Assembly: GCA_021234155.1 (NCBI GenBank)
Contig: JAJEKV010000289.1
Location: 248,001 to 312,000, forward strand
Direction: 5' to 3'
DNA length: 64,000 nt
Source of the DNA: Isoetes taiwanensis
Lineage: Eukaryota; Streptophyta; Lycopodiopsida; Isoetales; Isoetaceae
The translations under genes and the position numbers were made by a program. The notes below the pieces were generated by a model, which was not told the DNA's origin, did no database searches, and worked only from the letters and a program-made list of their open reading frames with translations. The stretch's first letter is position 1, and every line of letters starts with the position of its first letter. Positions 1,784 through 55,959 of the stretch are shown piece after piece.

Positions 1784-2530
1784 TTGGGGCCTACTATTCA
1801 AGATCAAAAAGTACATATCCTGTTCGATCCAGGTAGTGAGTTTGATTTCATTTCTGCTCGATTGGTAAAGGAACTAAAATTAACTTCTATTCCTTTATCA
1901 AATGATGTAGAATTGTCTTCTGCTGTCTTGAATAGTTGCCCCTCCGCCTTCTTCATTTATGGTGAAGGATGTTGAATTTCAACTGTAGGGATACGTCTGT
2001 AAACGTTCTTTCATAGTTTTTGACCTTGGAGATATGGATGTTATTCTAGGCATGCCGTGGCATAAGGCTATCAATCCTCTTATAGATTGGAAGGCATAAA
2101 TCGTTACGTTCCTTGGAAGGGGTAAAAGACCTTCAAGTTTATGAAGGATGATATTGGTTTCCCAATTCCAACAGTTTCTATTGTACAGTTCAAACATTTG
2201 GCAATGAAAACTCATTTTGTGTATTTGGTGGTTTTGCGTCCTAAGTCCTAGTGCATCTTCATTAAATGAGCGTCAAACTATCTTTTTGCAATATTATGAT
2301 GATGTTTTTTCAAATGATTTTTTCACAAACTTTGCCACCCCAATATATGGAGGACCGCATGATTGATCTTCTTTCTGGGAAAGAACCTCCTAATCATGCT
2401 CCTTCTCAAAGAATGCATGGCCAACAAGTTTAGATTAAGCGCCAACTTGACGAGTTACTTCAAGCTGGATTGACCTGCCATAGTTCTTCACCCTTTGGTG
2501 CTCCAACCATCATCCAATTAAATTGGGATT
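1784..2530 (+). mobile_element. Ty3/gypsy fragment: protease and start of reverse transcriptase
   Basis: The frame at 1784-1975 carries a retropepsin-like stretch with ILFDPGSE in place of the usual D(S/T)G(S/A) active site. After a frame change near 1975, 2010-2098 reads as the protease C-terminal part with a DVILGMPW motif typical of gypsy proteases. At 2340-2525 the linker and the start of the RT domain follow (QLDELLQAG and SSPFGAP), with an in-frame stop near 2430. The RT palm is missing and homology stops at about 2530. Gag, RNase H and integrase are absent. This is a truncated, inactive remnant. Confidence 0.75.
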
Positions 2531-2840
2531 ATGTCAACTCCAAAATCACGCCAACCTGCTGTTGTCTTCTAGGGGGTTTTTGTTTTTTTTAATCTTTTTT
2601 TTGGACTTAAAAAATAACATAAGGTTGCGATTCACGTGTGACGTTTCATATGCGAATTGAAATATGCAAAAATGAAGAGCAAGTTGCTAACATAGATGAG
2701 ACCAAAATTGCTTGCTCGATAGATGATAATATTAGGTTTGATAATAACAGATTGCATTATTTGCGAGGCAATTCCACACTCGAAATTATCGATACATGGC
2801 ACAAATATCATACAAAAATATCATATATTCCAATAAAATA
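2531..2840. other. AT-rich gap with homopolymer tracts
   Basis: T-rich runs at 2576-2600 are followed by AT-rich sequence. The small frame 2638-2844 has no recognisable motif and sits just beyond the 3' end of the minus-strand methyltransferase/phosphatase gene, so it is probably that gene's 3' flank. No terminal inverted repeat that would mark the end of the 2.8-16.2 kb block was recognised. Confidence 0.4.
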
Positions 2841-3476
2841 TTAAGGGATCAATCCATGTTTTTCCACGTATTTAACAAGGTGTGGTTCCATGTCAGCCGT
2901 TCTATCCAGTTCTGGGTATGAATCTAACACTTCATCCACCGTCATCCCCATAGCCAAATTATGCATAATAGACACAAACTTCACCAGAAAATCATCTGTC
3001 GCAAAGTTTTTTGGATCGTAAGATGGTGGATTCAGGGCCTGCGTTTGATTATAGAAGCATTTGAGAGCACCATCATCCACTATGATTATATCATCCTTAT
3101 TCTCGATACCAAGTTCGTCCATCATGTTACTCAAGTATTTGATGAAGATAGGCTTGCCTGTTGGATCCTTGGGATTAGTGAACTTCACACATTTGTTCTG
3201 ATCCCAAAAGGTCAACCAATGTCTACGCATTTCCCCCAGTGCCTCAAAGTATCCTTGATGTTCCTTAGTTCCATGGATGACCAAATACCAACTCGAAATA
3301 ACCTAAATGCCTCATCTAGCATCTCCTTCAAGTGCGGCCGCGGATAGATCCACTTGGTGTTTGATTCTACTGGTGTCTGATGAAACTGATCTCTAGCCAC
3401 TTTATTTTTTGGAAAAGTCTTGCAAAGGACTCCATTTAGGTCGAACACCACAACCTTCTTAGAAACACAATGCAAG
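2841..3476 (-). pseudogene. HAD/FCP1 (NLI-interacting-factor-like) phosphatase domain, last exon of the ParB/methyltransferase-like gene
   Basis: The exon opens at 3476 after an AG acceptor (3478-3477). VVVFDLNGVL is the HAD motif I, with the second Asp of DxD replaced by Asn as in many plant FCP1-like proteins. GIWSS is motif II, FWDQNKC the family's WDQ signature, and DDIIIVDDG the acidic motif III. A frameshift at a C run (about 3232-3238) separates the two halves. The frame ends at TAA 2843-2841. The phase across the intron 3684-3477 is exact: two bases from the upstream exon plus one here make a Ser codon. I therefore read this as the C-terminus of the upstream gene and not as a separate gene. 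Known members dephosphorylate proteins such as RNA polymerase II tails. Activity of this copy is doubtful. Confidence 0.72.
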
Positions 3477-3532
3477 CTGAAACATCAAACATGTATCTGG
3501 TCCGCAAGATATGATAACACAAACAATACAAA

Positions 3533-3663
3533 CGCGCCAAGCGTGATTTGAGTTAGTCTTAACCAAATCGCGCTCGGCGTGATTTAGTTTGACAACGAAA
3601 AATAATCAAAGCATGCCTGGCGCGATTTTCAAAGGTAATACAAATTAAATCACGTGTGGCACG
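3533..3663. repeat. Palindrome cluster in the last intron
   Basis: Four copies of the 13-bp near-palindrome CACGCYWGGCGTG, all somewhat degenerate, lie at 3533-3545, 3569-3581, 3612-3624 and 3651-3663. All are inside the 208-bp intron between the methyltransferase-like and HAD exons. Confidence 0.75.
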
Positions 3664-3684
3664 ATTTCGTGGGCAAGGCCATAC

Positions 3685-5770
3685 CTATCATCTTCAGTTT
3701 CGCTGCCGTCGTCGGCGTCATTCTCCCCTTCGCCACCCTTAATCTTCGTCTTCTTCTGACTGTTAGAATTGTTATTTTCTATTAGTTCCGCTGCGTCCTT
3801 CACAACTGACATTATTTTACTATTGATTTGGCAAACCTGTGAATCACTAGAGCCGCCTTGGTTGCCTTCAGCTTCGGTTTCCCTGTCAATTAGTCCATTG
3901 TTAACCTGTGAATCTACTATATTGTTGCTTGCATCACCCTGAAGGGAGGCATAGATATTCTCTAAGTTCGCCATGATCACAGTACTTTGAGCAGCCAGTT
4001 TAGTAGCTATTTATTCATTGCTTTTCTTATGAGGCTGCGTATTACTAGTTCCCTCACCAGAACCATCGTCCACTTTCGAATTGGACAAGTCTACGAGACT
4101 TTTGATTGCTGATGATTTCAGGTTGCCATAAGGGCCTTTAGGAGATTTGGCAAGCACATGCATGAGGAATGGTTCAAGAAAGTCTTTGGCCTGCTCATCA
4201 CTCACAAAGCAGTGACATTTTCTAACACCCATAAGAGCCTCTTGGGCAATATAACCTCCAACATGAAGCTCCAAGCAGGTTGTATCAATTGGAGCAAATG
4301 CCTCGACGAGGTAAGCAACCATAGACGGGGGAAATCCATTTTTATTTAAGGGGCCCTTCTCCTTAGTTTGTAGCTCGTACTTGATTTCCCCACTTAGGAG
4401 GGGGTCCCGATCCTCATCCTCTTGACTCATCATCATTACGTGATCCCCGATCCGTATGATAGAATATAGTTCTTAAGTCGGATCATCTAGAAGAAAACAT
4501 TCCCATGCACCGCTATTGTCACCCTTGGCCTTAGCAATATCATATTCCTCGTCTGACAGCATGGCTATCATAATAAAGATCACATGTGCCATCTTCCGTT
4601 CTTTTCGCAGCTCATTATCCTTAACATCATATATTAGGCATCCCTCTCTAATAACTTTGAGGCACTCCAGATCATGAGCAAATGGATAGTGCATGCAGAT
4701 GTGACTCACCGAAGGACAAACGATGACAATAGTGAAGGACCTCTCGGTTGTCAATCCTATACTGGTGGTAAAGAAGGCGATGTAGTCCTTCTGGTTCATG
4801 CCCATATCTCCTCTCCCACCCCTATTGTCCAACACAAAGAGTGATATATTTTTAAGGCAAGAAGTTGATTCTGGCAAGAGACCTTTGTACCCAATGGAGA
4901 CTGAATCTTTGGGGGGCGTCTTCTTCTCGGTAATCTTCTTCACAAGGGCCACTTTTCTTCTCAACTTCGGCCCAATTACCTTAGGGGAAGAGTCTCCTTA
5001 TGTTTTGTATTTTTAGCCTTCCAATTCTTTAGGAAGTCCTTTGGCGAATACAAACTTCTTGATGTCATCATTCTTGACCTTGTATTTGTCCAAACAATCC
5101 AATTTTAGATAATGCCACATCCCCGATAGCCTTTGTAACTTCGGCTCCTACTGGTGACTTCATTGTCATTACATCCTTCACATGGCTGCAGCACTCAACG
5201 AAGGACATTCTATCATTAGTGAAAGCACTCTTCTTGTATAAGACTTCCTTCTTTAAGCAAGCGATCTAAAATCCAAATGGTCTCGGCGTCGTCTAGCCCC
5301 CTGAGTCTTTCTCATCTGTCACATTCAAGTCAAAGATGCTTACATCAACGGGAGGCACCCTACCCATAGTATCTGGCGGACTTCCCTTGTGCATAAGTGT
5401 CCTGAGAATTCATTCCACTTTTGCCATCATTGCGTCCTTACAAAACACAATCTTATCACAGTCTTTAGGGCTGACACGCTAGATGAGCTTTTCGGAAGGA
5501 TCCGCAATGTCATCACCACCTTTTTCTTTGATTTTCTTGCGCTTTTCTTCTTCTCAGTATAATTGTCTGCATGAGAGTCCGCTCTCCAAGCCTTTTTTGA
5601 AAGCCTCCAGACTTTGACCCGCCCTGTGCGGTGGGTAATGGGCAGCCATATTCCACCCATCGTTGTTGGGCGCGGGCGCAGGTTGCTCCACGTATGGACC
5701 GCCAAAAGTAGGGGCATTGAATCGATGATCGAGACAAAGAAACACGCCGCGCGATTTCAATAGAAAAGAT
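3685..5770 (-). pseudogene. DNA-methyltransferase-like middle section of the ParB/methyltransferase/HAD gene
   Basis: Order on the minus strand is typical of beta-class N6-adenine/N4-cytosine DNA methyltransferases. A motif IV-like strand (SLFVLDNRGG, near 4830) is followed by a beta strand TERSFTIVIVCPSVSH (near 4720-4770). Downstream come motif X-like NKNGFPPSMVAYLVEAF and motif I-like CLELHVGGYIAQEAL (4240-4350), then an acidic Asn/Ser-rich linker (3685-4010). Motif IV is expected to read DPPY or NPPY. Here it is DNRG, and motif I lacks the FxGxG pattern, so catalysis is unlikely in this copy. In-frame TAA codons interrupt at 4475-4473 and 4013-4011, with the reading frame resuming unchanged each time. 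Between 5030 and 5580 there are several frameshifts and stops. The 5' part (5580-5760) is Pro/Gly/Asn-rich. The exon ends at a GT donor at 3684. Confidence 0.6.
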
Positions 5771-5781
5771 CAACCTCAAAG

Positions 5782-6020
5782 CACGCCTGACGTGAAAGAA
5801 TTAAATACCAATGCAGTTCACGCCAGGCGTGCTTTCGAATCGGTTGAATTCACGCCAGGCGTGCTTTCGAATCGGTTGAATTCACGCCACGCCAGGCGTG
5901 CTTTAACATTTCACGCTTGGCGTGAATTGGTTTGATTTGAAAGCACGCCTGGCGTGATTTGGTTTCATTTGAAATCATGCCTGGCGTGAATTGGTTTCAT
6001 TTGAATGAACGCCTGGCGTG
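5782..6020. repeat. Densest palindrome cluster (eight copies in one intron)
   Basis: Copies lie at 5782, 5819, 5851, 5888, 5912, 5944, 5976 and 6008 (starts, 13 bp each). Spacing is close to 32 bp (37, 32, 37, 24, 32, 32, 32). Several are the exact CACGCC-A/T-GGCGTG palindrome, and flanks repeat GAATTGGTTTCATTTGAA-like sequence. The regular period suggests partly tandem amplification, while isolated copies elsewhere are dispersed. Confidence 0.85.
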
Positions 6021-6058
6021 AATACTAAAGTGCTAACATCCTAATGCAGTCAATTACC

Positions 6059-6660
6059 TTTTGTATAGAAATGTCTTCCCCATTTCATTCAAAGTTGCAC
6101 TAATCTCAGCCAAATCTGCAGGTGAAGTATTGGCACCCAAGAGACGACACCTCCTATATGCATAGTGATTGTAGAACACGCTTTGGCCTGTTTGTTCTAC
6201 CTGCCTGATGAGGGCCTTTTGTGCCTCAATGAATCTTTGCCGTCGATGATGACGAATTTAATGTTTTCATTTAACATTACCTCCTCGAAGTTCGTCCACG
6301 CAGCAGGCTTGTTCGAGATCATATCCCAAGGTAACACATCCGCTGGCATAGGCATTTGACCTAGATTACTAATCATGCTCTGAACAATCTCCATGGCATG
6401 TGCTGGATCATATCTTCTGCTAACATAAATGGAGCTTGGTGAACAGATGAGGGACTTCACATGGATCGCAAAAGTTTCCTTAAGACCCAATGGATAATGG
6501 TCAGAGTATTTATTCAGCTTGTTCATGGCCTCTAGCTGCGCCACCCTGTCCTGTTCATTCTCAAAAACAGAAGCCTCCATGCCTTCGACAACTGCAGGTT
6601 GAACATCCTTCCCTAGATCTAGGACCCTCTTAGAAGCTTTCAAGTCAAACACAGTTGCAA
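6059..6660 (-). pseudogene. ParB-like segment of the same gene
   Basis: From 6652 downward the frame runs FDLKASKRVLDL, then KYSDHYPLG and FVIIDGKDSL. This resembles the V-x-DG-x-H(R) core of the ParB/sulfiredoxin fold, with Asp in place of the usual His/Arg. One single-base frameshift near 6225-6235 moves the frame. Beyond it CRLLGANTSPADLAEISA and a Leu-Asn-Glu helix continue, as ParB-like domains do. The exon ends at a good GT donor (6058-6057). The following intron (6058 to about 5770) holds eight of the 13-bp palindromes. The upstream boundary is a transposon insertion (6661-10780), not a splice site. ParB-like domains fused to DNA methyltransferases are common in phages. I infer that relationship from motif order only. 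Confidence 0.55.
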
Positions 6661-6893
6661 ATTAAACGGGAGTGTTGCAGCACTCCCGTTTCAAAGATTC
6701 CCTTTAAAAAAACAGCATGCTCTTAAAATTGGCCTTTTTTGGATAAACTTGAGAATTTTAAAAGGTTCAGTTTTTTTTTCCCTCATTTTGGCTCCTCATT
6801 AAGTGGCAAGTTTGTTTTGTGTAAAGAAACATCTTGAAAATGGCAAAATGTAGACATGAATACATAATCTCTAAAAGTGAGATATCAAGAACT

Positions 6894-7082
6894 TCAAAAT
6901 AGAGAAGAAAAAATAATAATTATTTCTTTATATTTTTTTAGTACATCAATTTGGCACCCTCTAATTGGTGCGTATTGAACAATACGCTTGTCAGACGTTG
7001 CAACTGGGTATCTGTCCCAAGTTTCCACATTTAGTTGTTCCATCAAACATGTTCCACGTTCTATTGGCGGAATAAAAAACAA
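6894..7082 (-). other. Short unassigned open frame inside the TIR transposon
   Basis: A 62-codon frame includes the stretch LNVETWDRYPVATSDKR. It is less compositionally biased than its surroundings and could be a captured exon fragment. I recognise no family. It may also be chance. Confidence 0.2.
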
Positions 7083-7136
7083 AAAAAATAATCAAGTAAA
7101 TAAATGAACACTAGGACACATAAAACAAAAAATGTA

Positions 7137-7410
7137 AAAACAAAAGTGTATTCTGGAATACACTTTTACTTTTCTAAAAAACAAACGTGTATTCTAGAAT
7201 ACACTTTGGCTTTTTAGAGAAAGCAAAAGTGTATTCTGGAATACACTTTTGCTTTCATGAGAAAGCAAATGTGTATTCTGGAATACATCTTTGCTTTCTA
7301 AGAAATCAAACGTGTTTTTTAAAACAACGTGTTGCCTATGTATTAAGGTTTAGAGCTAGCTTACTTGTGCGATTCCATGGACATTTCTTACCCTATTCTA
7401 GAATACAAAT
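7137..7410. repeat. Left subterminal palindrome cluster of the TIR transposon
   Basis: Four near-perfect copies of GTGTATTCTGGAATACAC lie at 7146-7163, 7187-7204 (CTAG core), 7229-7246 and 7271-7288, about 41-42 bp apart. Degenerate versions lie near 7309 and 7395. Spacers are AAAGC/CTTT-rich. The arrangement resembles subterminal transposase-binding repeats. Confidence 0.75.
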
Positions 7411-7682
7411 CAAAAGCCATATTTTCAAATTACCTGCACCCCACACCTGTCAAAATGTCATCCTGCATTCTCAAAATGGGTGGAGACTTAATGTGAACTG
7501 AAGAATGTATTGAAGAATGGATGGAGACTTAATGTGAACCTGAGATATTCAAAAGTCTCAGTCATTCTTGATGTATTTCCTTGTCTTTGTGCAAAAAAGA
7601 AGCAGAGATGTTGACGTAGAAAGTCATTAAGCCCATCAAAAGTACTAGTTTATTTCATGCTCCTTTTACAAAAAGGATCATG

Positions 7683-7785
7683 GATATAGAACTGTATGCC
7701 TATGATGATATGCATTGTGAAAGGAAAGATACATGGATATAGAACTGTATGCCTATGGTAATATGCATTGTGAAGGGAAAGATGG
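7683..7785 (+). repeat. Tandem duplication of ~55 bp
   Basis: A segment beginning GGATATAGAACTGTATGCC occurs twice in a row with small changes. It lies in the noncoding interior of the TIR transposon. Confidence 0.7.
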
Positions 7786-8192
7786 GTATGTACGAACATT
7801 CATTAAAAACATGTGGCATGTTTGTACCTCGAATAAGTTATTGTTGGCATATTTGTACCTAGTATTAAGATGTAAACTGTAAAATGAAAGGAAGGAGAAA
7901 AAGCAGATCAAAACATGTTGATATTTCATTGATTTTGCATTCCCTTCAAAGTTGTACATTAACTTTTCAGTTTGGCATACTCATTTTCCACTGGAATGGT
8001 ACTTTTTAATCTCTAAGTTCTGGCCAAAGTGGCTTTCCATTACACAGCTTAGTGGGTTCGCATCTCTCTCCATTAAAACTTTATTTTAAGGACATGTACA
8101 TAAGCCTTTTTGAAAACATATCCATCGTCTTTAGAGCATTGGCCTGATTGTGGCTCCATAGCAGGATTGTCACAGCAAATTATTTCTCAGTT

Positions 8193-8314
8193 TCACCATG
8201 GTAGTCCATGGTAATGACCCAAAGAACAACATGAAAACAATGATGCCTGTTCTCACCATGGTAGTCCATGGTAATGACCCAAAGAACAACATGAAAACAA
8301 TGATGCCTGTTCTC
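8193..8314 (+). repeat. Exact tandem duplication of 60 bp
   Basis: Two head-to-tail copies of a 60-bp unit starting TCTCACCATGGTAGTCC lie in the interior of the TIR transposon. The identity of the copies implies a recent duplication or, less likely, an assembly artefact. Confidence 0.8.
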
Positions 8315-9925
8315 AACCAAGGACACAAAAACAACGAAGACAATAATGCCTACAATGATGCCACATGAAAATAATGATCCCTAGAGCTATGATGCTCTGA
8401 TTGGAGATCAGAGCACCCAAAAACTCAAGTCTTTGATATCCAGAACTGTCTGGCTGTGTCCTCCCATGCCCTGGCCCAAATAACGAAGAGAAAAAGGTGC
8501 AGCAACATCAAAAACCAACAAAACCAGCATCCTGAACCAACATATGTAAATCACGAAAATTATAAAATAGAACAAGCACATTTGTTGCATTTTAGAAGAA
8601 TCCGTCTCCTGCTTCTCTGTAAAAATGAAAGACAAATCCATGTCACATTATGTTCACAAGCTTAAAAAACATTCCCTGCAACAAGAAATAAAATTCTATA
8701 TTTACAAGCTTAGAAGGTTTTACAAGCTATGTGTACTAAGAAGGATGTGAAATACAATGCACAAGTTACATTTCCGTTTGACATGACAATTCTGCAGTTA
8801 CATCTTGCAAAAAAATTGTTGATCTTGCCTAGATTGGATCTTGCAGCAGATTTGCAAGAGAAGTGTAAGAGAATATGAAGATAAAATAGATAGACCAGAA
8901 GTAGATACTCTAGCAATTGTAGAAATTGAGAAGGTGAAATAAAGTAAGAACTGCATAGTTTAGATAGAAAATATAGAACATGTAAGGGGATGAAGGATGA
9001 TGCAAACGAAGACGAGGCAGCAACATGACAACTGATGTCAAACGACAATGCCTGCTTGTTGGTTATGCTTGTTGGTTCTGCAGATAATGGCAAATGATAT
9101 CGAATGAAATGCTTAAATGCAAATAGGTGAGAAAGCAGAGACGCAGTCCATTTCCAGACTTAAGTTTGTAACCATGCCACACAATTAGTTTGATGAAAAT
9201 AACATACAGTTTAAGGGGAAAGATGGTGTCATGACATAAATTATACCTGAAGTGTGGTAGGTGTAGATAAAGGATCCAAAGGAAGATGGAAGCCTTGGAA
9301 GATCACTAAGGATAAGAGATACAGTTGTAATGCCCTCTACGAATCAAATGAACTTTTTGTCCATCTTGAGAAAAAAGCCATGGAATCTTAGACGATCCTA
9401 CAGAAAAAAGCCATGGAATCTTAGTGCAAATCAAACGACAAAGAAACAATTTGTGCTACCTATTTGTGAAAGTGCAATCAACCGACAAAGAATCAAAAGA
9501 CAATGATGTTCAAAGATCACCTGTTTTGAGACTTTGCTTGCAGACTTCCCTTGCAGACCCATTTTGACAAAGACATTCAGAAGACCTTGAAGCAAAGACC
9601 TGTTCAAAGATCACCCATTTTGACAGACCTCCCTTGCAGACAAAGATCACCCGCCAGAGAGGTGCTGCCAGAGCTGGGTATGGCAAAAAATCCGCATCTA
9701 AGGGAGGCGACATGGAGTCGGGAGTCGGGAGTCGACATGGTAAGCAGAAACCTGATGTAAAAAATATTTGTGTTTGTTGTAGCCAGCGCCCTAGCTCATC
9801 ATGTAGGTAAAACCCATACCAAAGCCATGGGCACACTGAAATGGGAGCTCGAGGTTTCTATAGAAAGATCGCCGGAGCAAATTCTGCAGAAAAAACACGT
9901 CTCTATCCCTCTAGAAAAAAAAAAC

Positions 9926-10425
9926 CTATTCTGGAATACAAAACGTATTCCGGAATACATTTCCTTGTTTTTTTTTGAACCACGATCCAGTATCCCACTT
10001 TTTTTTGAACCACGATCTAGTAACCCACTTTTTTCTTTAACCACGATCCAGTATCCTCAATACATTTCCCTCTTTTAAGAAAAATTGAAAGGTTCTCAAA
10101 ATTGAAAGGTTGTTGGTTTGTTTTTCCTTTTTTGCTTATCTTTTCATTATTTAGAACTTTGTTCCTGTATCCCCTCATAAAAACAAAAAAAAATCGCAGC
10201 ATGGTGCCGAAAACCCCGAAAACCCGGAAAACTCGGAAAATTGCAAGATCATTGTTGAGTCTCAAAAACTTGTACAGCAAAAGTGTATTCCGGAATACAC
10301 TTTGGATTTTGAGCAAAACCAAGAGTGTATTCTGGAATACACTTTGACTTTCAAGAAAAGCAAAAATGTATTCCGGAATACACTTCTGTTATCCTCGAAT
10401 AGCAAAAGCGTATTTCGGATTACAA
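9926..10425. repeat. Right subterminal palindrome cluster and 32-bp tandem repeats
   Basis: Copies of the GTGTATTCCGGAATACAC motif lie at about 9926-9960 (two joined copies), 10283-10300, 10325-10342, 10366-10383 and, degenerate, 10408-10425. Between them, 9966-10060 holds three tandem copies of a ~32-bp unit containing TTGAACCACGATCCAGTA. Together with the left cluster this gives the transposon mirrored palindrome zones at both ends. Confidence 0.72.
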
Positions 10426-10785
10426 TTTTGGTACTTTAAAATATTATATCATTAAAAAATTATTCATTGTAATCTAAAAGTATCATTTCTGGAATATAAT
10501 CCGAGCTAACAAAATATTGTGTAGGATATACACTTAAATTAATGGTTTTCTCTAAAAACACACTTCAGGTAAATTCTAACTGTTAGGAAAAGTGTCACTT
10601 TGACGTAGTCAATTTTCTCCTTGCACAAAAAAATGAGTGATTTTGGGGGGGTCAAAATGCAATTTTATGACCAAAATAATTTTTTTACCCCATTTTAGCT
10701 CTTTTTTTGAAAAAAAAAGGGAATCTTTGAGGAATATTCCTTTTGCTCCCGTTTCAATGATTTGCTCCCATTTAATATGCAACCT

Positions 10786-11953
10786 TGTTGTCAGCTAATT
10801 CCCCAGCTTGCTGCAAATAGTGACTTTGTGTCGGTTTAGTGAACATGCCTCTACGCACAGCTGTAACCCCTTGGCAAATAGATATTGGCGTAACTGCTAC
10901 ATTGGTTGGCCAACCATACTTAAAACATGTCTCACCGTTCACATCTGTCCTCATGAACATATCCTTGTATGCAGTAGCTCTACAGTGAGTAAGTCTGAGC
11001 AGATCTTTCTTTTGCTTATGTGTAATCTCCAAGAGCAATTTGCAGTTGGTGTCATCCTCTTCCTCACAAGAGATTAGGATCCCTTGTTTGGTCATCTTGT
11101 CTGCTTCCTTTTTCCTCGAGAAGAGAGTTAAGTCGAGCTTGCCATTTGTCTTGGCAAGGTCAACGTACCACTCGGCACCCTCGTCCATTTCCTCTTCAGG
11201 GCAGGCAGGGTCAGTGGTTGCTATAAGAATCAGCCCTTCATCATCTAAGGTGAGATCATATGGTACTGCATCTGGGTCGTCTACCTTAGGTTTCTTGCCA
11301 GGAATAGAACCCGAATTATTAGGGGTTTTCTTCCTCTTGGGCACTGCAAAAGAAGATGAACATTGGGATTATTGTATTTTCCAGAACAAGAGATCACGCT
11401 TGGCGTGAATTTAAACCTAAATTAGTATAATTCACGCTTGGCGTGTTCGTAGCTCTTACTATATACCATGCTATGCGTGAATTTGAAGCTAAATTAGTAT
11501 GCATCCACATTTTAAGCTACATACCCTTTATGAATCCATATTTCTCACTATTTAACCTCATTGAACACTGCTATCTCTAACTGTCAAACCTCCAGCTCTA
11601 AATAGGTGTGTATCCCTCTGTTAAAAACCACTAAGAACTATATTCTATAAAACAGAGCAAAATTATGTCCTAAAAAGCAGACAATCAGAGCATTAATTGA
11701 AGGTAATAATTTGAATTCATGCAAGATAATAACTCAAATTCATGCAAACCATATTAACTGAAGGCAAGGAAATAACTCAAATTCATGCAATGCATAATAC
11801 TCTTCTTACAATGTGTATTCAGAAGGCAAATTAAATACCTTGAATAGGGGTTTCAACGTCCTCTGAAACTTGAGAAGAGCCGGGTTTTGAGATTCCTCTT
11901 CCACCGCTTCCTCTGCCCCGTCCGCCTCGACCTCGATTCGTTTTAGAAGACAT
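10786..11953 (-). pseudogene. N-terminal part of the ParB/methyltransferase/HAD gene (two exons)
   Basis: The start codon is at 11953-11951. Exon 1 (11953-11839) encodes 38 residues rich in Arg-Gly (TNRGRGGRGRGSGGRG), an RGG-type nucleic-acid-binding region. The donor is G|GTATTT, the intron 11838-11344, and the acceptor TTTTGCAG. Exon 2 begins at 11343 and the split Val codon joins in phase. Exon 2 starts with a basic PKRKK nuclear-localisation-like motif, then an acidic stretch, then a globular region with KYGWPTNVAVTP. It is open to GTTGCA at 10785, where the TIR transposon interrupts it; the natural continuation is at 6655. The TAA at the old end lies within the transposon. The intron holds three palindromes. 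No stop or frameshift is seen in this part. Confidence 0.65.
11395..11479. repeat. Palindrome cluster in intron 1
   Basis: Three copies of the 13-bp motif start at 11395, 11433 and 11467, again about 35 bp apart. They sit in the first intron of the ParB/methyltransferase-like gene, near its 3' splice site. Confidence 0.8.
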
Positions 11954-12345
11954 TTCCGGAGTCGCCTAGTAACAGAGTCGGAAGGTCGCTCGGATATGCA
12001 CTCGAGCTGCTCGAAGAAATAGCTTTTTCTACCTGTACGAGAAATAGTGTTTTCTACCTGCACGAGAGAAATTTGAATTTCAAGAAAACACAAAATGCAG
12101 TTTCGAAATATTCTTGACACATAAAAATAATAATGACGAAGATTCACTTTCAAAAAAAAAAAAGAACCCGTCCGCCGACTTCTTTCATTGAGTTTTTAAA
12201 AACCAATCTACCGTGTTCTTTCATTGATTACATTTATCCCGCCAAAATGTAATTGACCTAAGCTTTCTTGTAACTCGAATTTTTCCCGACCGCCTGCGTT
12301 TCCATAGCACCTGTGATTTCGAGAACTCGAATCGGCTTCTCAAGA

Positions 12346-12677
12346 ATGGCTACAGAATTCTGGTAAGCATCTCATTCCTATAGCTTGTACAATAATTTCC
12401 ATTAAAGGTGTCTGAATAGGCAATTGTCTGCAGTGTCGAAGATGAATGTTTCATGTTAACTACAAATCAGAAAAAGAAAGTAGGATTATGCAATATCGAC
12501 TCCATCGATCCGACTGCAAACTGTCATGGAATTCCGCTCGGGGATAAGTATGTCCGAGTTACAGTGATTAACTGCTGCGCTACGGATGAAGTTTTACCTC
12601 GCAGACACCCCGGTGGGGATACGGTTGGAGAAAGTGTTGGAACATTTGTTGCATGGCCAAGAAACCGCTTAAAAAAG
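12346..12677 (+). CDS. DUF8039-like domain gene fragment (plant transposon-associated)
   Basis: Exon 1 (12346-12362) gives MATEF plus two bases before a GTAAGC donor. Exon 2 (12434-12677) follows a TGCAG acceptor and keeps phase, with 81 codons, to a GTATGT donor. It reads VGLCNIDSIDPTANCHGIPLG, ending with VGTFVAWPRNRL. This pattern (a repeated 'x-G-T...PLG...V-G-D/E-x-x-G-T...WP') matches a domain seen in many plant proteins linked to CACTA-type transposons and Ulp1-like proteases. No later exon is recognisable, and the sequence beyond is repeat-like. It lies head-to-head with the ParB/methyltransferase-like gene (start at 11953), so the two could share the 12.0-12.3 kb promoter region. Family assignment is from memory of the motif. 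Confidence 0.5.
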
Positions 12678-12739
12678 GTATGTAACATGTATTACATTGT
12701 GGAAATATAGAAGTAGACAAAATTTGTTGTATTCATTGG

Positions 12740-13160
12740 AAAAAGTTTACAATTGTATATAATCTAGATAAACTGGATAAACCAGACAAAATCTGTTTGG
12801 GGTCTGGGTTCGGGAACTCCTGCAAGACAGCCCTCTGTGAGGACCCTTGGATCTAACAGGAGAATCCGGGGGGACTATGTCACGCGGGATTTGCAAGAAA
12901 AGAACAAGAAGAAGAAGAAAACGGAACAGAAAAGAACAATGAGAGGAAAATGATATGCTTCTTGATATCAATGATGAACATACATGAGCTCTCGCAATTG
13001 AGAGAAGACTGAAGAGAGACAAGACTCAAAACTCATCTAGCCCTCATATGCTAGCTCTACTCATATATATAGTACAATGGCCTTTGGCCCAATATAGACA
13101 CTCTGACTGATCTCGGTGCCGACTCGAGACCTGATTTGCAGGAATGTTGGCGGTGCCTCT
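12740..13160. other. Possible LTR fragment or 3' flank, no gene
   Basis: The stretch contains a TATATATAG box (13063-13072), a polar A-rich region and an AG-rich tract, with the layout of a copia LTR. No matching second copy exists in the window. Alternatively it is the 3' untranslated region of the minus-strand gene ending near 13199. Confidence 0.25.
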
Positions 13161-13198
13161 TGAAGTGCCTAGAATCACGCGGACGCTGACGCGGGCGG

Positions 13199-13340
13199 TG
13201 ACGGCCCCTCACTTGTCTGAGCGGCGCCTCTTGATAGGCTGCTGCTTGGTCTTCTGCGGGGCCTTGGATGGCTGACCCGTGGTTGACTGCGGATCCTTGA
13301 GCTTGACCTGGTCCGTCGTATGCATGAATAGTCCTGTACC
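13199..13340 (-). CDS. Possible basic C-terminal exon
   Basis: After an acceptor-like CTGGTACAG (near 13340), one minus-strand frame reads through TTGQPSKAPQKTKQQP and ends with KRRRSDK then stop (near 13199). This looks like a C-terminal nuclear-localisation tail. It may belong to the coiled-coil gene upstream, but I could not find a donor in that gene that joins in phase. Confidence 0.3.
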
Positions 13341-13388
13341 AGGAGGCACAGGACTAACAAAATCCCAGACTACTGTTTTAAGCCCAGT

Positions 13389-13982
13389 CTACTGAGTAGC
13401 TGGGCTATCGATACTCCCATTTCCATTCCAGGGCATAGTGAATGGATCAGGTAAAACCCCAGCAAAAACCCCAGGCTCTAGCTCCACCTCCCCCGCCTGC
13501 TCCACCTGCTCCTGCTCCAATGCATCATATACCGCCTGCGGTAGTGGTTCCATTGGTTGAGCCAGTGCATCGTATGCCGCCTGCGGTAGTGGTTCGTGTT
13601 GGGGCATCCGGGCATAGAGGCTAGCCACTAAGAAACGCAGCTCCTCATTTTGAATCTCGAGCTGACGATTGCGAGATTCACTCTCGATCAATGCGTGTAC
13701 TGCTTGATCGAAGTGATCAGATAAGAGGGCCAGCCTCCGTGCGATTGCAAGGGCCTCAGAGCCCAGATTTATCATTGCCCTGCGCTCTGCTGCCATCATC
13801 ATTACTTGATCCAAGTACTGCAGTGGTTGCAAGACTGGTGCTCCAGCCGGACTGGTGCTCGGCTGCGGTTCAACCGGACTAGAGATTGGAGCCGAAACTG
13901 GAGCTGGGCTGTGTGATTGCTGCCCCAAATGTAATTCCAATGAATCTTCATCACCAACCGGGTGATTAATGTAACTTGGCAT
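13389..13982 (-). CDS. Hypothetical coiled-coil protein of the palindrome locus
   Basis: An open frame of about 197 codons starts MPSYINHP. It has a Pro/Ser-rich N-terminal 60 residues, then a helical region (residues ~65-130) with heptad-like leucines (LALLSDHFDQ, IQNEELRFLVASLY). A duplicated ~20-residue unit with PLPQAAYDALAQP and PLPQAVYDALEQE follows. It ends with a short acidic, then Gly/Asn-rich tail. I recognise no family. An AG sits directly before the ATG (13983-13984), so the true start may be in an upstream exon. The 13-bp palindromes begin 35 bp upstream. Strand, spacing and palindromes tie it to the ParB/methyltransferase-like gene. Confidence 0.5.
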   Translation of the reverse strand: MPSYINHPVGDEDSLELHLGQQSHSPAPVSAPISSPVEPQPSTSPAGAPVLQPLQYLDQVMMMAAERRAMINLGSEALAIARRLALLSDHFDQAVHALIESESRNRQLEIQNEELRFLVASLYARMPQHEPLPQAAYDALAQPMEPLPQAVYDALEQEQVEQAGEVELEPGVFAGVLPDPFTMPWNGNGSIDSPATQ

Positions 13983-14016
13983 CTATCAATAGGAAGTGAG
14001 CGGAGTATCAGTATTC

Positions 14017-14356
14017 ACGCCTGGCGTGTTATATTTATTTATTTATAAACTTAGAAACTAAGAGACACGCCTGGCGTGTTTAACTTAAAAGTTGAAACTA
14101 GGGATAAAATTGTTTGCATGCTCAGCGTGTAAACTGCTATATAGGAAAAACTATACACGCTCGGCGTTCATTGAGCAGAGAGGGAGAAAAAAAAAAAAAC
14201 CTGTACAGATAGATAAGTAAATAGATAAAGGTGCCTGGCCTTTATCTATTTACTTATCTATCTGTACAGGTTTTTTTTTTCTCCCTCTCTGCTGAATGAA
14301 CGCCGAGCGTGTATTCATATTCAAGGCTAAGGTTAGCATGGAACACGCTTAGCGTG
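14017..14356. repeat. Palindrome cluster upstream of the coiled-coil gene
   Basis: Six copies of the CACGCYWGGCGTG motif start at 14017, 14066, 14117, 14156, 14299 and 14344. Two of them (14156 and 14299) form the outer ends of a long hairpin. Confidence 0.8.
14153..14314. repeat. 162-bp near-perfect hairpin bounded by the 13-bp motif
   Basis: The two arms, about 75 bp each, pair almost perfectly around a loop of a few bases near 14233. Each arm runs from the palindrome motif through an AG-rich block, an A/T run and a GATAGATAAGTAAATAG-like block. Arms this similar imply recent origin as a foldback element, or active use as a structured RNA. It could yield small RNAs if transcribed. Confidence 0.85.
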
Positions 14357-14469
14357 TTTCAAATGTTATCTTTGAGATTTTTCTAATGCTTTCTACTACA
14401 CTTATTCATAATAGAAACTTGCATGCAATAGCATGATTAATTCATGAAGAGAAACTCAAGAATTTACTC

Positions 14470-14575
14470 GAAACAAAAAGAAGCAGATGAAGTTTATAAA
14501 AAACTATTCTGGTTTTCATAAACATCATCTGCTTCCTCTGCCTCGAGCAAATGCAAAAGCTTGTTTTCTTGAATT
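14470..14575. repeat. Second, miRNA-precursor-like foldback
   Basis: GAAGCAGATGAAGTTTAT (about 14480-14497) pairs with the complement of ATAAACATCATCTGCTTC (about 14519-14536) with one mismatch. The stem is extended outward by CTCGA/TCGAG and CAAGAA/TTCTTG matches. Size and mismatch pattern resemble a plant microRNA precursor, but no expression evidence is available. Confidence 0.5.
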
Positions 14576-14589
14576 AAACATGTCATTGA

Positions 14590-14932
14590 GATGCAGCTTA
14601 AAACTAAATGAAAACTAACCTTGAGTTCTGAGTTCTGATTTTGGATTTAATTCCGAGGCTTTCAGTTTCGCAGACCTTAGTCCTCTGCTTTTGGTTTTAA
14701 TTCTGAGCCTCCGATGTCCTCTGCTACAGATGCTACAGAACAAAAGGCGGAGTCTTTTAGTAAGTTAGGAATTGCCGAAACCAAACATCTAACATTGCTG
14801 AAAATAAATCTACTCACCAAGATTTTAGGAGGGCGGATCCAAACACACGCCAGAAGTTTAAACCGCAAGAAATCGTATGAAGGAAGGAAGAAAATGTAGG
14901 AACTTTGAGAGCGTGAAATGGATTTATATAGG
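14590..14932 (-). CDS. Promoter and short exons of a small gene in the palindrome locus
   Basis: A TATA box (CCTATATAAATCC on the minus strand, 14932-14920) precedes an apparent leader exon that ends CTTG|GTGAGT near 14818. A second exon (about 14725-14600) is open in one frame as a basic, Lys/Arg/Ser-rich peptide (RLRIKTKSRGLRSAKLKASE) and ends CAAG|GTTAGT. No clear ATG was found, so it could be the 5' part of the coiled-coil gene at 13389-13982, or a decayed gene. Its promoter is a duplicate of that at 16064-16141. Confidence 0.35.
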
Positions 14933-14991
14933 CATAATTAGAAATAAGTTAGCGTGAATAATTGATTGCTTGAATTAACACGCCTGGCGTA
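14909..14991 (-). promoter_or_regulatory. Promoter block, copy 1 (TATA box plus palindrome)
   Basis: About 80 bp is shared with 16064-16141. It holds GGATTTATATAGG (plus strand), an AGCGTGAATAATTGATTG block and one 13-bp palindrome about 45 bp upstream of the TATA box. Orientation drives the minus strand. Confidence 0.55.
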
Positions 14992-15573
14992 CGGTCTTCC
15001 CGCCAGACATGACATGTATATGGTATATATGGAGAATATTGCATTTTATGCAATAAATTCTCACGACATTTTATTCCATTTCGAAAAAATAGAATTTAGA
15101 AATTTTATATAGGCTAAATTAAAAATGATTTTAAAGGCAAAATTATCAAGGCTAAAGACTTGTAGGGTTGGGGACTTGTTTTAGGTCGTATAGGAAAATT
15201 TTCTATGGTTACTGTGATGAATCAGAGATTTCTCATGTGGTTGATTTATAGTGTTCCCGAGACTTTGTTGAGACAAATGCAGAGACAAAATTTTAGAGAA
15301 AACAGCTTAGAGACAAAATAATTGGAGAAAACAGTTGGATTTCATTCAAATAATTTTATGTACGTAAAAAAGCTGTTAGAAGAATTTGTTTGAAGAAAAT
15401 TTTATGAAGAAAACTGTTTGATTTCATTCATAAGAGTTATATGTACAGATGCCCGAAGGCTTGTAAGCAGCTGCCCGAAGGCTTTTCACAAAATTACAGA
15501 AAAAAAATGCCCGGAGGCGTGTCCAAAACTTCTGTAAGAAACCAAAAAAAAAAGGGGCCGCCTGGGATCTGCA

Positions 15574-15990
15574 TCATTGATCTTCCACGTCTGCAACAAA
15601 GAAGAAAGAAAGGTGTTAGAAAAGAAAGAAAGGTGCAAAAAAAAAAATATATATATATAAAAGCAGACATGCAAACCTGGTTCATCTCTCAACCATTCTA
15701 AAAATTGGTCGAATTGTCGACCTTCTTCCGAATCTTCTTCCTCCGCCTCCTCCTCCTCCTCCGACTCTTCAGAGATTTCATTCTCTATTTCAGGGTCAAG
15801 CCAACCCTGAAGCAGAGCGGTCATGTATTCTTGAGAGGACAACTCCTCCTCTTCCTCCAACTCCTCCTCTTCCTCCTCTCCATCAGAGGAGGAATCAGAG
15901 GAGAATTAGGAAAGAAAATCTATTTGGGGGGGGGGGATGAGGGGGTTCTTCAACCCCGACATCTCTTTGAGGAGACCTCGGGTTCTTCAT
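15574..15990 (-). pseudogene. Small acidic protein gene of the palindrome locus
   Basis: The start is at 15990 (MKNPRSPQRDVGVEEP), about 85 bp downstream of a TATA box. A run of 11 C (15926-15936 as G) and an in-frame TAA just after it break the frame. Beyond, a Glu/Ser-rich region (SSSDGEEEEEE, then SQEYMTALLQGWLDPEIENE) continues to EWLRDEP. The donor is CCAG|GTTTGC (exon end 15677), the intron 86 bp, the acceptor TTTGTTGCAG, and the final exon (15590-15574) adds four residues and TGA in phase. About 110-120 residues if intact. The composition suggests an acidic nuclear or chaperone-like factor. I recognise no family. Tandem GAG-type codons make it prone to slippage. Confidence 0.45.
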
Positions 15991-16063
15991 GAAGGTCGGC
16001 CGAGGTCAACGCTTCATAGCGGGAAAAAAAAAAAAAAAAATTGGACAGAATGGAGGTCTTGAG

Positions 16064-16141
16064 AGCGTGAACCGGATTTATATAGGGTTAATTAGAAATT
16101 AGCGTGAATAATTGATTGCCTCAAATAACACGCTAGGCGCA
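16064..16141 (-). promoter_or_regulatory. Promoter block, copy 2
   Basis: This is nearly identical to 14909-14991, with the TATA box at 16086-16074 on the minus strand and the palindrome copy at 16129-16141. It sits just upstream of the small acidic gene. A further degenerate palindrome lies at 16197-16209. Confidence 0.55.
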
Positions 16142-16224
16142 TTTAAATTCCCATGACTATATCATCTAGGGTATATTATTATGGATAATAAATTCTCACG
16201 CCTATCGAGTTTATATATGTCTTT

Positions 16225-16270
16225 TTCAGTAATCATATATCCAAATTTTCGATAATTAAAATTTGGATAT
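16225..16270. repeat. AT-rich 15-bp inverted repeat
   Basis: ATATATCCAAATTTT pairs with AAAATTTGGATATAT across an 8-bp loop. It lies near the right limit of palindrome-bearing sequence and might mark the end of the locus, but no partner near 2.6 kb was recognised. Confidence 0.4.
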
Positions 16271-16531
16271 ATTTATATAAATGTCATTTCCTTGTTGTTG
16301 CCACGAAAATTCTTGTTTTAAATGATTTCGTTTACACCCATTGTTATAATTATATTCAACCTATTTCCAAGGAATTTCTTGCTTTTAAAAAAATTTGATT
16401 TACCTCTACATATTCCATAAAAATGTGCATTACTTTTTTTTTATCTTATGGTGTAATAATTTTTTCCTACTCATTGACTAAAAAGGGTGCAATTTGCCTA
16501 GGTCAATGGTGCCTCTCCAACTCAAGATGGT

Positions 16532-19380
16532 GTGCAACATATTGAAAAGAACAATATCAATGAAAAACCAACTCCTAGCAAGAATGTTGAAGAAAAACAA
16601 TTAGTCCTCTATAGTAGGGTGCAATGGAGGAACAAGAAGGTGAGAATCATGCACAAGTGCAACAAGGAAATAGTAGGCCAAGGAGTCATTGTGCTAGCAG
16701 ATCCTGGTCAAGCTGTTAATGATGAAAGGCTAGGGGAAGACAATATTGGTATTGCAATTTCGATGTTGGAAGACAACTGGAAAGGTAAAGGTTTGGGTGA
16801 CAAGGAATGTTTTGGTTGTGTCAAGCAATTGGAGGTTCCTTGCATCATGGCATGGCCTATAAGTAGTGTTCAATTTGTGGAGGATTATATTTTTCCAGAG
16901 CCTGAGGTTGTTGGGGACAATGATTGTCTTGATATTGATCCATTGGCAGTTGGAGAAGTATCAGTTGCCAGATATTATCCTAGCAAAAGAGCCAAGTTGA
17001 TTAGTGACACCAAACGTGAGACAATGGTGAAGGTTAGGGGCTCAGATTGTTGTTGGAGTGCTTGTATGCAATTCTTTACAATAGAACAATTGGTGGAAGC
17101 AAGAGCCACTTTTCAAGAGTACACTGTTGATGAGAGGAGGACCTACATGTACACAATCTTCGAGCATGCACTTCAGGATGAAAGAAACCCAAACAGAAAA
17201 AGATACCCTTTGCTAGGCAAATGGATATGTGCAAAAGCATGGCAGAAAATCCATGCAATTCCAACTTCTTCATGGCATAATTGGCAAAAAAAACAGGCAG
17301 AGGGGAACAGGATTGCTTTACATGGAAATAATGGTTTGTTGAGACCAACAGCTAGGACCTTGGCTGCCAGGGAGATATTTGAAAAATATATTGATTTCAA
17401 TGCAGAGTCTATGTCACACAAAAGCAGAAGGGATGAAAAGGGAAGACAGTTGTTGAGAAAAGGTTGCCATCACATTGTACTCAAAAGAGTATTTTGAAAG
17501 AAGTGAATTCCCTACTTCGAGAATTGGGAATTCTTCCAATATCCCAACCTAGCTTTAGTAGGTTATGGAAGAAGCATTTCAATCATGTCACCATAGCAAC
17601 TTCAAACAACTTTGCAAAGTGCAATTTATGTGCTAAGTTGAAGGAGACTCTTGATAAGACTGTGCAACCTAGTCAAAGCGCTAGGATAAGGGAGCATATG
17701 AAGGACCATATGACTGACCAACTATCATGTAGATCATGTTATTGGATGTGGAGGACTTTATCTGCATTGGAACCCAATAACTATTTATGTATTATACATG
17801 ACAAGATGGACCAGCAAAAGACTTGTCTTCCACAATTCAAGTACATACCAAAGTCATGTGGAAGATCATACCCTTTCTGGATCTCAATGACTGGGGCAAT
17901 CTTGCATGGGCGGGACTCAAACCTACTATGGCCATTTTAGTTTGGAGTTGTGGAGTGATGGTCCAGATTTTTTCATATTGGGAGTATCATGAGGTGTTTG
18001 AGAAACTATGAAAATGGATACAATGGTTACCTCCGAGGACCCTACTGACTAGCCGGGCACACTACATAGAGCATTGTTAGATGGAAACCCTAACAATATT
18101 GAAAAGTTCAGCAAGGCAAGGTTTAGGAAGCATGGGTTTAATGAACATGTTGGAGCTTCAACTTCACGTGCTAGACCTCAAGATCTACCCAAAAGGTTTC
18201 TCTTGCAACTTGATAATTGTGCTGGCCAAAATAAGAACAGGTGGATGTTTTCTTTCCTTTCCTACTTAACAGCTGTGGGGATATTTGAAAGAGTTAATTT
18301 AGGGTTTCTTCTTATGCCCGGGCATACCCATGAGGATGTGGATGCATTATTTGGCCAAAATAGTTGTATACTGAAGCAGCAGACGGTGACCAACTTTCCT
18401 AGGCTAATGGAAATCTTGCATGAATCTACTCCAAACCCTATAGCTTCTCTCATAGAAGAAGTGCTCGATTGGAAGAGCTTTGTGGATGGTTATACATTGG
18501 ATCTTGAAGGTCATTCCAGGCATCTGCAGTTCACTTTTTGGGTGAGAGATGAGATTCCAATCTTCCAATGGAAGATGAGACCTTCAGAGGATGAGTGGAG
18601 AGGAGGGGAGGAAATATGGCGTAGAGATGAGAATGGCAAGCCTATGATACCTCCAGGTCAACCAAAAGCTCTAAAACCTACTGAAGAAGTGAAGCAATTG
18701 GGATTGACTAAGGAAGGAATCCAGGACTATATAAAGCATTGGCAAACCAATCCAGATGACACCAACCGTGCCTTGATGGCTTACTGGAAGAAGGTGATTA
18801 ACCTATTGGGGGAGATAGACACATCCTCATATGAATTGAAAGAAGGGTGGTTGCCTAACACTAGGTGGAAGACCTTAGCAGGTGCTGAGGATGTTGATGA
18901 CACTGTAAGTAGCATTCGCAAGCAATATGCTCCTCCTCCTTCTGACAAACACTATGTTGGTCCTAAGAACAATAGGCCAAAGTTTCTAGGCATGGATGCT
19001 TATGAACCTTCCACTGACTTGGAATGCCACCAATTTGTGGTAGTAAAGCCAGCAGATTTAGATACATATCCAGTGTGGTTGGGGTTCACTATCTCTGATA
19101 TTTACAAAGAAGAAGGTAATATTAACTTCAACTATGTGCGGGTGGAATGGTGGTGTCCAGTGCATCAGTTGACCAACGATCAGATAAAGAAAGGTACTCA
19201 GATTGTTGGACAAAGAGATGGAGGAGAAATCCGAGTGATCCTGATCTTTGGCTAGACTATGAAAGTGTTTTGTACTCATTGACTCCAAACACTATTCCAG
19301 CTAGAAATGCGAGAATTACAATACCTCGGGATGTCAGGAAGAAGGCTATGATATCATTGGGGGTGCTTGAAGAAAGTTGA
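16532..19380 (+). pseudogene. DUF7869-type transposase-like gene, frameshifted
   Basis: Three overlapping reading frames form one protein-like series: 16532-17470, 17464-17940 and 18074-19240, with a C-terminal piece at 19200-19380. The N-terminal part carries LLGKWICAKAWQKIHAIP, a helical DNA-binding-like region of such proteins. The second frame has a zinc-binding-looking CNLCAKLKET. The third holds FLLQLDNCAGQNKNRWMF and GFLLMPGHTHEDVDALFG, the two hallmark motifs (DN...GQNKN and GHT-x-x-D...FG) of an RNase H-like domain found in many eukaryotic repetitive genes. Frameshifts fall near 17465, 17930-18070 and 19200, so the copy is inactive. Function as a transposase is inferred from its repetitive nature and metal-binding-like acidic residues, not demonstrated here. 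Confidence 0.65.
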
Positions 19381-19539
19381 ATACGTTTTTATGATATGGT
19401 GCTATATTGTGAAATATTGACTATTTTGTAAATAACATGATATTACGTTTTCATAATTTTGAGGTGAAATGTGTGAATTTGAATATGCTACTAAAAACAT
19501 GCAATATGAAATTTGTCCCAAAATTAAGACATAATTCCA

Positions 19540-54589: not shown

Positions 54590-55250
54590 CCTTCAGAAGA
54601 AGATACAACAGAGATTTTTGCCTGCAAACTGCCCATGTATTAATATCAAAGCACCTTCTCTATCTGCTCCAAGTTCATGCACTTGATTGTAATAGTCATC
54701 AACAACATAATCCACAACATCTCCTCTAAACGCAACCTCTCGCCATGTATCTGCCAGAATGTTGTAGGAAAGTATGCTGTGAGGATAAGAATCATAGTGT
54801 CCCCTTATTGTGACAAAATGAACCACCCCATTATGCACTGTTTTGGTACCATTCTGCAAATTTCCTTCACAAATCATCCCACCATCACTACATTTGCTGT
54901 TTGTGCCGCTGCGCCTGGACCAGCTTTCTACATCAGAATCATACACATGTGCCACAAAAGTGGTATCTGGGCAGTCACAATCTAGAGGCTTGCATTCACA
55001 GTGCTCCTTTGGAAGCTCCCAATAAGAAATCACAACTACTTTATACCTAAGCCTCTTGCTGCATGATCTGCCTGCATGATCTGCCGGAGGAGCTTTTAGG
55101 GTTCTTATCTACATGCAATGCAACTATACAAGCACTGAAATCAAGCCTGCAAGATGGAGCTTTGGGTAAGAATATAGACGAACCGGTAAGGGGATTCAGA
55201 ACTGCCAGTTGCCGATTCGCAGAAACCCGCCTCAACATAATTTTTGAGCA
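54590..55250 (-). pseudogene. F-box-associated (kelch-like) gene fragment
   Basis: 55235-55047 reads [20 protein letters not shown], then [16 protein letters not shown]. After a one-base shift near 55045, YKVVVISYWELPKEHCECK and SYNILADTWREVAFRG continue to 54593. 'NP-T-G...LP', 'YKVVVI' and 'Y-x-x-x-x-x-W' are typical of the substrate-binding region of plant F-box proteins, which recruit targets to SCF ubiquitin ligases. The F-box and the first repeats are missing, replaced upstream by the cyclophilin copy. Confidence 0.6.
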
Positions 55251-55266
55251 AATGAACAAAATATGT

Positions 55267-55937
55267 TTACAGGGGAAGCTCTCACTGTCAGCAATTCTAA
55301 CAGTACTTTTGGGAGCTCCACTCTGAGTGCCTTCAGCTTCGACCTTAAAAACAACATACATTCCAGTGATAACTTTCCCAAACACAACATGTCTACCATC
55401 AAGCCAGCCAGTCTTAACAGTAGTGATGAAGAACTGAGATCCATTAGTATTAGGTCCTGCATTTGCCATAGACAAGACACCAGGGCTACTGTGCTTAAGC
55501 TTAAAGTTTTCATCTGCAAACTTGGCCCCATAGATAGATTCTCCTCCCCTTCCATTTCCATGGGTAAAATCCCCTCCTTGGATCATAAAACTAGGGATAA
55601 TACGATGAAAAATGCTGCCTTTAAAATGCAAAGCCTTACCACTGGATCCCATTCCTTTCTCACCGGTACACAGAGCTCGGAAATTGTCCACAGTTTTAGG
55701 AACTGCATTACCATAGAGCCCCGTAACCACGCGACCTGCTGCCTTCCCATTGATTTCCACATCAAAATAAACCTTGTGAGTAATTTCTTCCAGATTCTTG
55801 TCCTGTTTCTTTGCCGCTGTTACAAAATCTGTCAACAGAGCCAAAGTTAGGATCGCTATTGCCTTCAGAGCTCTGCCCAGAAAACTAGAGTTCTTCACCG
55901 AGCTGAATACTTCATCTCTTGGCACATATGGGTCCAC
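55267..55937 (-). pseudogene. Intronless ER-type cyclophilin (CYP20-1-like) retrocopy, stop codon lost
   Basis: The frame starts at 55937. A hydrophobic signal ([20 protein letters not shown]) precedes a complete cyclophilin domain: [64 protein letters not shown] and [13 protein letters not shown]. Catalytic Arg (FHRIIP), Phe and the Trp site are kept, so peptidyl-prolyl isomerase residues look intact. Plant genes of this type have introns and this copy has none, so it is a retrocopy. One G is missing just before the expected ELPL-stop (about 55280). The frame therefore runs on into the F-box fragment, giving a 296-codon fused frame. Confidence 0.8.
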
Positions 55938-55959
55938 AATAATGAGCGCTCTTCGGAGT

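Follow-up and report, generated by a model that had tools for sequence, protein, structure and literature searches.

What is a short palindromic word doing when it is repeated some two dozen times within one block of a plant genome, while being kept out of the exons predicted there? The question is raised by a 64-kb stretch of the Isoetes taiwanensis genome (GenBank assembly GCA_021234155.1, contig JAJEKV010000289.1, positions 248,001 to 312,000; part of contig C834), referred to here as the window, in which a sequence-only reading had noticed about 24 copies of a 13-bp near-palindrome at 3533-16209 and none elsewhere. The word belongs to a DNA transposon with a DUF7869 transposase, in which it forms a motif system that is real, specific and family-wide. 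On a modest balance of probability, its sites are the targets of a VANC-like protein encoded by the transposon family, which would bind them and counteract silencing.

Palindromic sites in the window

A symmetric weight matrix, trained on 15 of the dyad sites, finds 24 sites of the 13-bp dyad CACGCCWGGCGTG scoring at least 10 bits, a cut-off picked after viewing sixteen thresholds. All 24 lie inside 3533-16209, with 1.55 expected per 64 kb (the mean from 20 first-order Markov sequences), in agreement with the number and confinement reported from the sequence-only reading. The top scores outside the transposon are 9.5 bits (57858) and 8.9 bits (40457). Allowing up to two mismatches, CACGCYWGGCGTG yields 38 strand matches at 22 places, again all within 3533-16209, compared with a mean of 1.56 matches and a maximum of 5 in the shuffled window. 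Recurrent perfect palindromes were also enumerated without reference to the motif (12, 13, 14, 16 or 18 bp long, with four or more G/C). At 13 bp and above just two families reach eight or more matches in the window, the dyad family and one confined to a nested insertion, while at 12 bp three other palindromic words have 8 to 11 matches scattered across it.

The 13-kb block first described lies within a transposon of 17 kb (2505-19558), and the introns of two transposon genes share the sites between them. Introns 1, 2 and 3 of G1, a damaged orphan gene beside the transposase, hold 3, 8 and 3 sites respectively, with a further 10 in a 3.8-kb intron of the transposase. In gene models predicted from sequence alone, no dyad site (0/24) falls in the 7,700 bp of predicted exons, upholding the earlier statement that the sites are noncoding only, and none (0/24) in either nested insertion. 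Counting by the six clusters is fairer than by the 24 sites; under random placement, all six would be noncoding with a probability of about 0.003.

Site spacing is mostly 32 bp at 5819-6020 and 34-51 bp or larger elsewhere, so that the period of 32-35 bp previously proposed describes the former stretch and not the remainder. Parts of G1 intron 2 (5817-5889 and 5912-6023) are 32-bp tandem arrays. Between clusters, identity of the 13-bp core is 79%, a value inflated by site selection, and that of the 40 flanking bases 31%, a value unaffected by it, with random pairs at 30%; within clusters flank identity is 44%. Local duplication therefore operates within the clusters, and what is shared above chance between them is the dyad word and a weak adjoining A/T preference only. 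Tandem duplication might account for the whole pattern, the word being that of an ordinary minisatellite which multiplied and hitch-hiked with the copies without any function. The 32-bp arrays fit such passive spread, as do two sites on the arms of a single inverted duplication and a word that is not extra-conserved among close copies, yet we regard it as improbable, given that the core is common to the clusters and the flanks are not, that the six clusters are separate (three within the introns of G1, the other three within that of the transposase), and that the motif recurs in diverged relatives, found via the motif, whose flanks no longer align.

Copies and diverged relatives across the genome

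Across the 1.66 Gb of the genome, the exact pattern matches 2,469 times on the forward strand and 2,411 times on the reverse, as against 12 and 8 times for the reversed pattern. Each perfect dyad is scored on both strands and so contributes twice to these 4,880 strand matches. The first 100 of them (contigs C2 to C96) were hand-grouped into 25 places, all of which were read in stretches of 3 to 30 kb. The sequence-only reading had named a word common across the genome as counting against its interpretation. The word is common, yet 23 of the 25 places among the matches listed are copies or relatives of the transposon by DNA, protein or end similarity; for L032 and L034 the assignment depends solely on the terminal repeat, which is some 0.5 kb away from the site. 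At L029:1488 and L030:1568 the sites CACGCCTAGCGTG and CACGCTAGGCGTG have no transposon similarity within 3 kb, and the L029 site lies inside another repeat, common to L009, L011, L019 and L025.

Across 13 genome regions (173 kb), none of 153 sites of at least 10 bits lies in the 51,521 bp of exon-homologous matches, exon homology being a DNA match to window exons that misses much exon DNA in the diverged C4, C34 and C79. G1 intron 1 contains 1-7 sites per copy in 10/10 copies and intron 2 contains 3-11 in 9/9, therefore site number varies and place is kept; intron 3 has sites in 3/6. Sampling through the motif demands one site somewhere per copy, not one per intron. The expectation that homologous loci would share the motif is thus borne out for most introns of these motif-found copies.

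Diverged relatives retain the sites in homologous positions. In L024, with a transposase of 71% DNA identity, four sites lie within the homologous transposase intron, and L028, whose first G1 exons have 53% protein identity, has six within G1 intron 2. In L027 and L031, where the stretch stops short of the far intron end, the sites lie downstream of the second transposase exon, on its intron side. With the word masked, the flanks in these relatives match the window transposon at most in short stretches adjoining its other motif copies. The composition of the intron 2 array differs as well. In the window it comprises 14 CACGCC half-sites and no AATTGGC boxes. In the L024 intron (L024:923-1416) no site reaches 10 bits, and there are five CACGCC half-sites and eight AATTGGC boxes (0.25 and 0.06 in shuffles); the L028 intron (L028:1098-1661) has nine and four, respectively, beside its full sites. 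This pattern, in two motif-found relatives, is as would be expected if target arrays drift between subfamilies.

The two putative minus-strand promoters in the transposase intron have in common a block of about 85 nt, in which a TATA box is accompanied by TTCACGC half-sites and a full site. TATA boxes ringed by full and half sites are what might be seen if a host transcription factor read the sites as enhancer or promoter elements, which the transposon would have captured and multiplied for its own genes. Introns can hold enhancers, a further point in favour of a host factor. It nevertheless seems rather unlikely that one is responsible, since no site reaches 10 bits in the other 47 kb of the window, one transposon family accounts for 23 of the 25 genomic places listed, the divergent spacer between G1 and the transposase lacks a site, and the homologous intron has a differently composed array in one relative and a mixed array in another.

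The transposon, its transposase and its other genes

The transposon has AACC...GGTT ends (Table 1), and other copies begin or stop at the same bases, with the same left end in C2, C96, C68 and L022. Three copies with both ends (C2, C96 and C4) show exact 4-bp target duplications, CTCC, TTAT and GATG, which replace the 3-bp duplication first guessed from the window alone; their lengths are 11.6, 12.4 and 15.6 kb. The host of the window copy is a Ty3/gypsy element, insertion having occurred within its reverse-transcriptase region, and two reverse-transcriptase parts, read by eye, flank the transposon and face each other.

Two later insertions interrupt the window copy (6648-10789 and a solo long terminal repeat (LTR) at 12794-13359), other copies being uninterrupted at both places. 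The first is a 4.1-kb element without clear genes, having similar sequence elsewhere in L011. It contains its own 18-bp palindrome GTGTATTCYRGAATACAC with eight matches, four on the left and three on the right being in mutually inverted arrays of 42-bp period, a few hundred bases from the element's ends. The solo LTR, in the transposase intron, is flanked by the duplication AAATC and has similar LTR sequence in L012, L013 and L020.

Positions relative to the ends bear on whether the transposase binds the sites for transposition, in the manner of the subterminal repeats of many DNA transposons. The half-site AATCACGCC at 2544 is close to the left end, the transposase is DDE-type by predicted fold, and the nested 4.1-kb element does have palindrome arrays near its own ends; the nearest dyad sites of at least 10 bits, however, are 1.0 kb from the left end and 3.3 kb from the right, and the sites occupy introns and putative promoters, making a role in transposition quite improbable.

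The transposase core is DUF7869 (PF25273, E 1.6e-31), a domain without a named function in Pfam, and a limited literature collection returned no paper for the term DUF7869. Of two transposase pieces scanned in Pfam, one matches PF25273 only and the other nothing. Eleven proteins match the transposase; each contains PF25273, and one is named from Branchiostoma lanceolatum. The predicted fold is RNase H-like and DDE-type, and its candidate acidic triad includes invariant D169 and E208, with D31 and D34 nearly invariant (P0009, 12 rows). Exons 1 and 2 correspond to the region of residues 1-82 in the relative P0003 (E 8e-11 in a two-sequence comparison), and tblastn of P0003 matches 12480-12701 (E 4.7e-6) and, in changing frames, 16616-19359. 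These N-terminal exons also resemble Transposase_23 (TNP1/EN/SPM), with an E of 4e-4 that falls narrowly short of the cut-off. The idea that the part at 12.4 kb is a CACTA-like gene of its own was rejected, because in relatives it forms the N-terminus of one protein with the rest of the transposase. Tudor/PWWP-like and BAH-like domains may be present at the ends of DUF7869 transposases (P0002 residues 1-93 and 936-1046; window 12346-12677); Pfam shows no Tudor/PWWP or BAH domain at these ends.

In G1, exon 4 matches PF03031 (E 6.9e-13) and, below the cut-off, PF04255 (E 2.9e-4). Scanned pieces of G1, which is damaged and was scanned piecewise, and of G3, an open frame in the transposase intron, have no Pfam match to DUF1985 or DUF287. 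A by-eye reading of G1 as a methyltransferase was dropped, as searches gave no match. ParB centromere sites, offered earlier as a parallel for the motif, find no support here, the G1 stretch in question having neither a ParB match in Pfam nor a PDB sequence match up to E 10, and two limited searches no G1 homologue. Upstream of G3, a near-perfect 160-bp DNA palindrome at 14153-14314 has one motif copy per arm and is a possible hairpin source of small RNA. A viral source was also considered and rejected: a paired-motif scan gave one viral contig, with an unrelated coding repeat by eye, and a transposase scan of viral contigs confirmed 0/92 pattern matches. Further along the window, an open frame on the minus strand (55047-55961) resembles, by eye only, a cyclophilin-type peptidyl-prolyl isomerase.

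Table 1. Coordinates of the transposon, its genes and its motif arrays in the 64-kb window
Feature	Position	Strand	Remarks
Whole DNA transposon	2505..19558		17 kb; about 12.3 kb minus two nested insertions; bounded by 31-bp inverted repeat
Left target duplication CTCC	2501..2504		Right partner 19559-19562 is CTCA, 3/4 match
Left terminal inverted repeat AACCATCATCCAATTAAATTGGGATTATGTC	2505..2535	+	29/31 positions match right end
Right terminal inverted repeat	19528..19558	-	From end alignment and other copies
Motif array, G1 intron 3	3533..3624		3 sites
Motif array, G1 intron 2	5782..6020		8 sites in two inverted halves, spaced mostly at 32 bp
Motif array, G1 intron 1	11395..11479		3 sites
Motif cluster upstream of G3	14016..14356		6 sites; 14156 and 14299 on arms of 160-bp palindrome
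Putative promoter	14905..15011	-	Full motif 14979, weak second site 14999, TTCACGC half-sites 14952 and 14911 around TATA box
Second putative promoter	16059..16209	-	Sites 16129 and 16197, half-sites 16102 and 16065
Transposase exon 1	12346..12362	+	Gene start; splice join
Transposase exon 2, N-terminal part	12434..12677	+	Transposase_23 similarity just short of cut-off; Tudor/PWWP-like fold in relative
Transposase intron, 3.8 kb	12678..16501	+	Minus-strand units, 10 motif sites, solo LTR; similar gap in other copies
Transposase exon 3	16502..19379	+	Core (DUF7869) plus C-terminal part; frame broken at three points
G1 exon 1, RGG-rich start	11839..11951	-	From translation and splice signals
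G1 exon 2, first part	10790..11345	-	Cut by nested insertion; continuous in other copies
G1 exon 2, second part	6057..6647	-	Frame break; holds stretch read as ParB-like (unsupported)
G1 exon 3	3683..5735	-	Several stops; start uncertain
G1 exon 4	2841..3483	-	NIF-phosphatase-like and DUF433-like end, frame break
G3, 197-aa open frame in transposase intron	13389..13982	-	Also in other copies

Candidate role of the arrays

The explanation we lean towards is that a DNA-binding protein encoded by the transposon family, probably as a dimer, would have the dyad as its binding site; the candidates are G1, G3 and the transposase's N-terminal part. With sites arrayed in the G1 introns, the 3.8-kb transposase intron and the two putative minus-strand promoters, the bound protein would most likely keep transposon chromatin open or promoters active, like VANC in VANDAL elements and TnpA in Spm. 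The arrays would grow and shrink via local duplication and drift between subfamilies.

Two known families need to be set beside this transposon. VANDAL elements have a MULE-type transposase and a target duplication of about 9-10 bp, and CACTA transposons have CACTA ends and a 3-bp target duplication. The present element, with its DUF7869 transposase, 4-bp duplications and AACC...GGTT ends, belongs to neither VANDAL (MULE) nor En/Spm (CACTA). It resembles En/Spm with TnpA in its Transposase_23 similarity, below the cut-off as this is, and in the proposed mode of action, its own protein on repeated sites, and differs from it in the ends, the target duplication, the DUF7869 core and sites that are not subterminal.

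The likeness to VANDAL21 and its protein VANC21 in Arabidopsis extends further. VANC21 is reported to sit at a 9-base motif in introns and in intergenic and terminal noncoding parts, and its target tandem repeats are gained and lost between copies (PMC5735166); TnpA activates Spm, with demethylation, and Spm TnpA and MURA likewise lower methylation of their own elements (PMC10398659). As in VANDAL21, the motif here is arrayed in introns and upstream regions of one family, and not in its exons, with tandem repeats gained and lost between copies and altered arrays in related families (PMC5735166, PMC10398659). Unlike the VANC21 target YAGTATTAY, of nine bases, the word is a 13-bp palindrome, and anti-silencing would apply here by analogy. 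The comparison with VANDAL made in the sequence-only reading therefore stands for the intron and upstream arrays, their copy-variable number and their absence from exons, and fails for the transposase and the 4-bp duplication; the anatomy is the same in kind as that of VANDAL21, in a transposon of another family.

Several results weigh against target sites of a transposon-encoded protein. Dyad sites are absent from the 394 bp that separate the divergent G1 and transposase genes, and also from G1 intron 3 in 3/6 copies. Two of the 25 places among the matches listed (L029 and L030) have the motif without the transposon, and the copies and relatives, being located through the motif, are a biased sample. 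The analysis identified no DNA-binding protein, and no homologue of G1 came out of two limited, word-based searches. Conservation of the motif and of neighbouring noncoding sequence is 0.957 and 0.957 in nine copies, and 0.852 against 0.940 in seven, with CpG retention barely higher in the motif (0.84 against 0.72; 0.78 against 0.71). Pooled ratios of nonsynonymous to synonymous substitution (dN/dS), computed by reading all three frames without fixing the coding frame of each exon, span 0.51-1.23 over all frames, most lying at 0.5-0.7 whether the frame is coding or not. Because dN/dS separates coding from other frames poorly, the copies, the window copy included, mostly look like decaying ones.

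A broader and more doubtful proposal, which we put forward tentatively, is that an undescribed superfamily of eukaryotic DNA transposons, combining a DUF7869 DDE transposase, Tudor/PWWP-like and BAH-like end domains, AACC...GGTT ends and a 4-bp duplication, evolved its own sequence-specific anti-silencing independently of VANDAL, with intronic arrays that drift together with the binding protein. Its rating was lowered slightly because only L024 has a clearly different intron 2 array, that of L028 being mixed.

If the arrays do bind an anti-silencing protein encoded by the transposon, the VANDAL strategy would have arisen at least twice in unrelated transposons, and one could then ask why introns are preferred. 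The family is a natural test series, in which homologous introns, their arrays unchanged or altered, are paired with diverging G1 copies. It would then also offer a new sequence-specific tool for changing chromatin state, together with a transposase possibly equipped with chromatin-reading domains.

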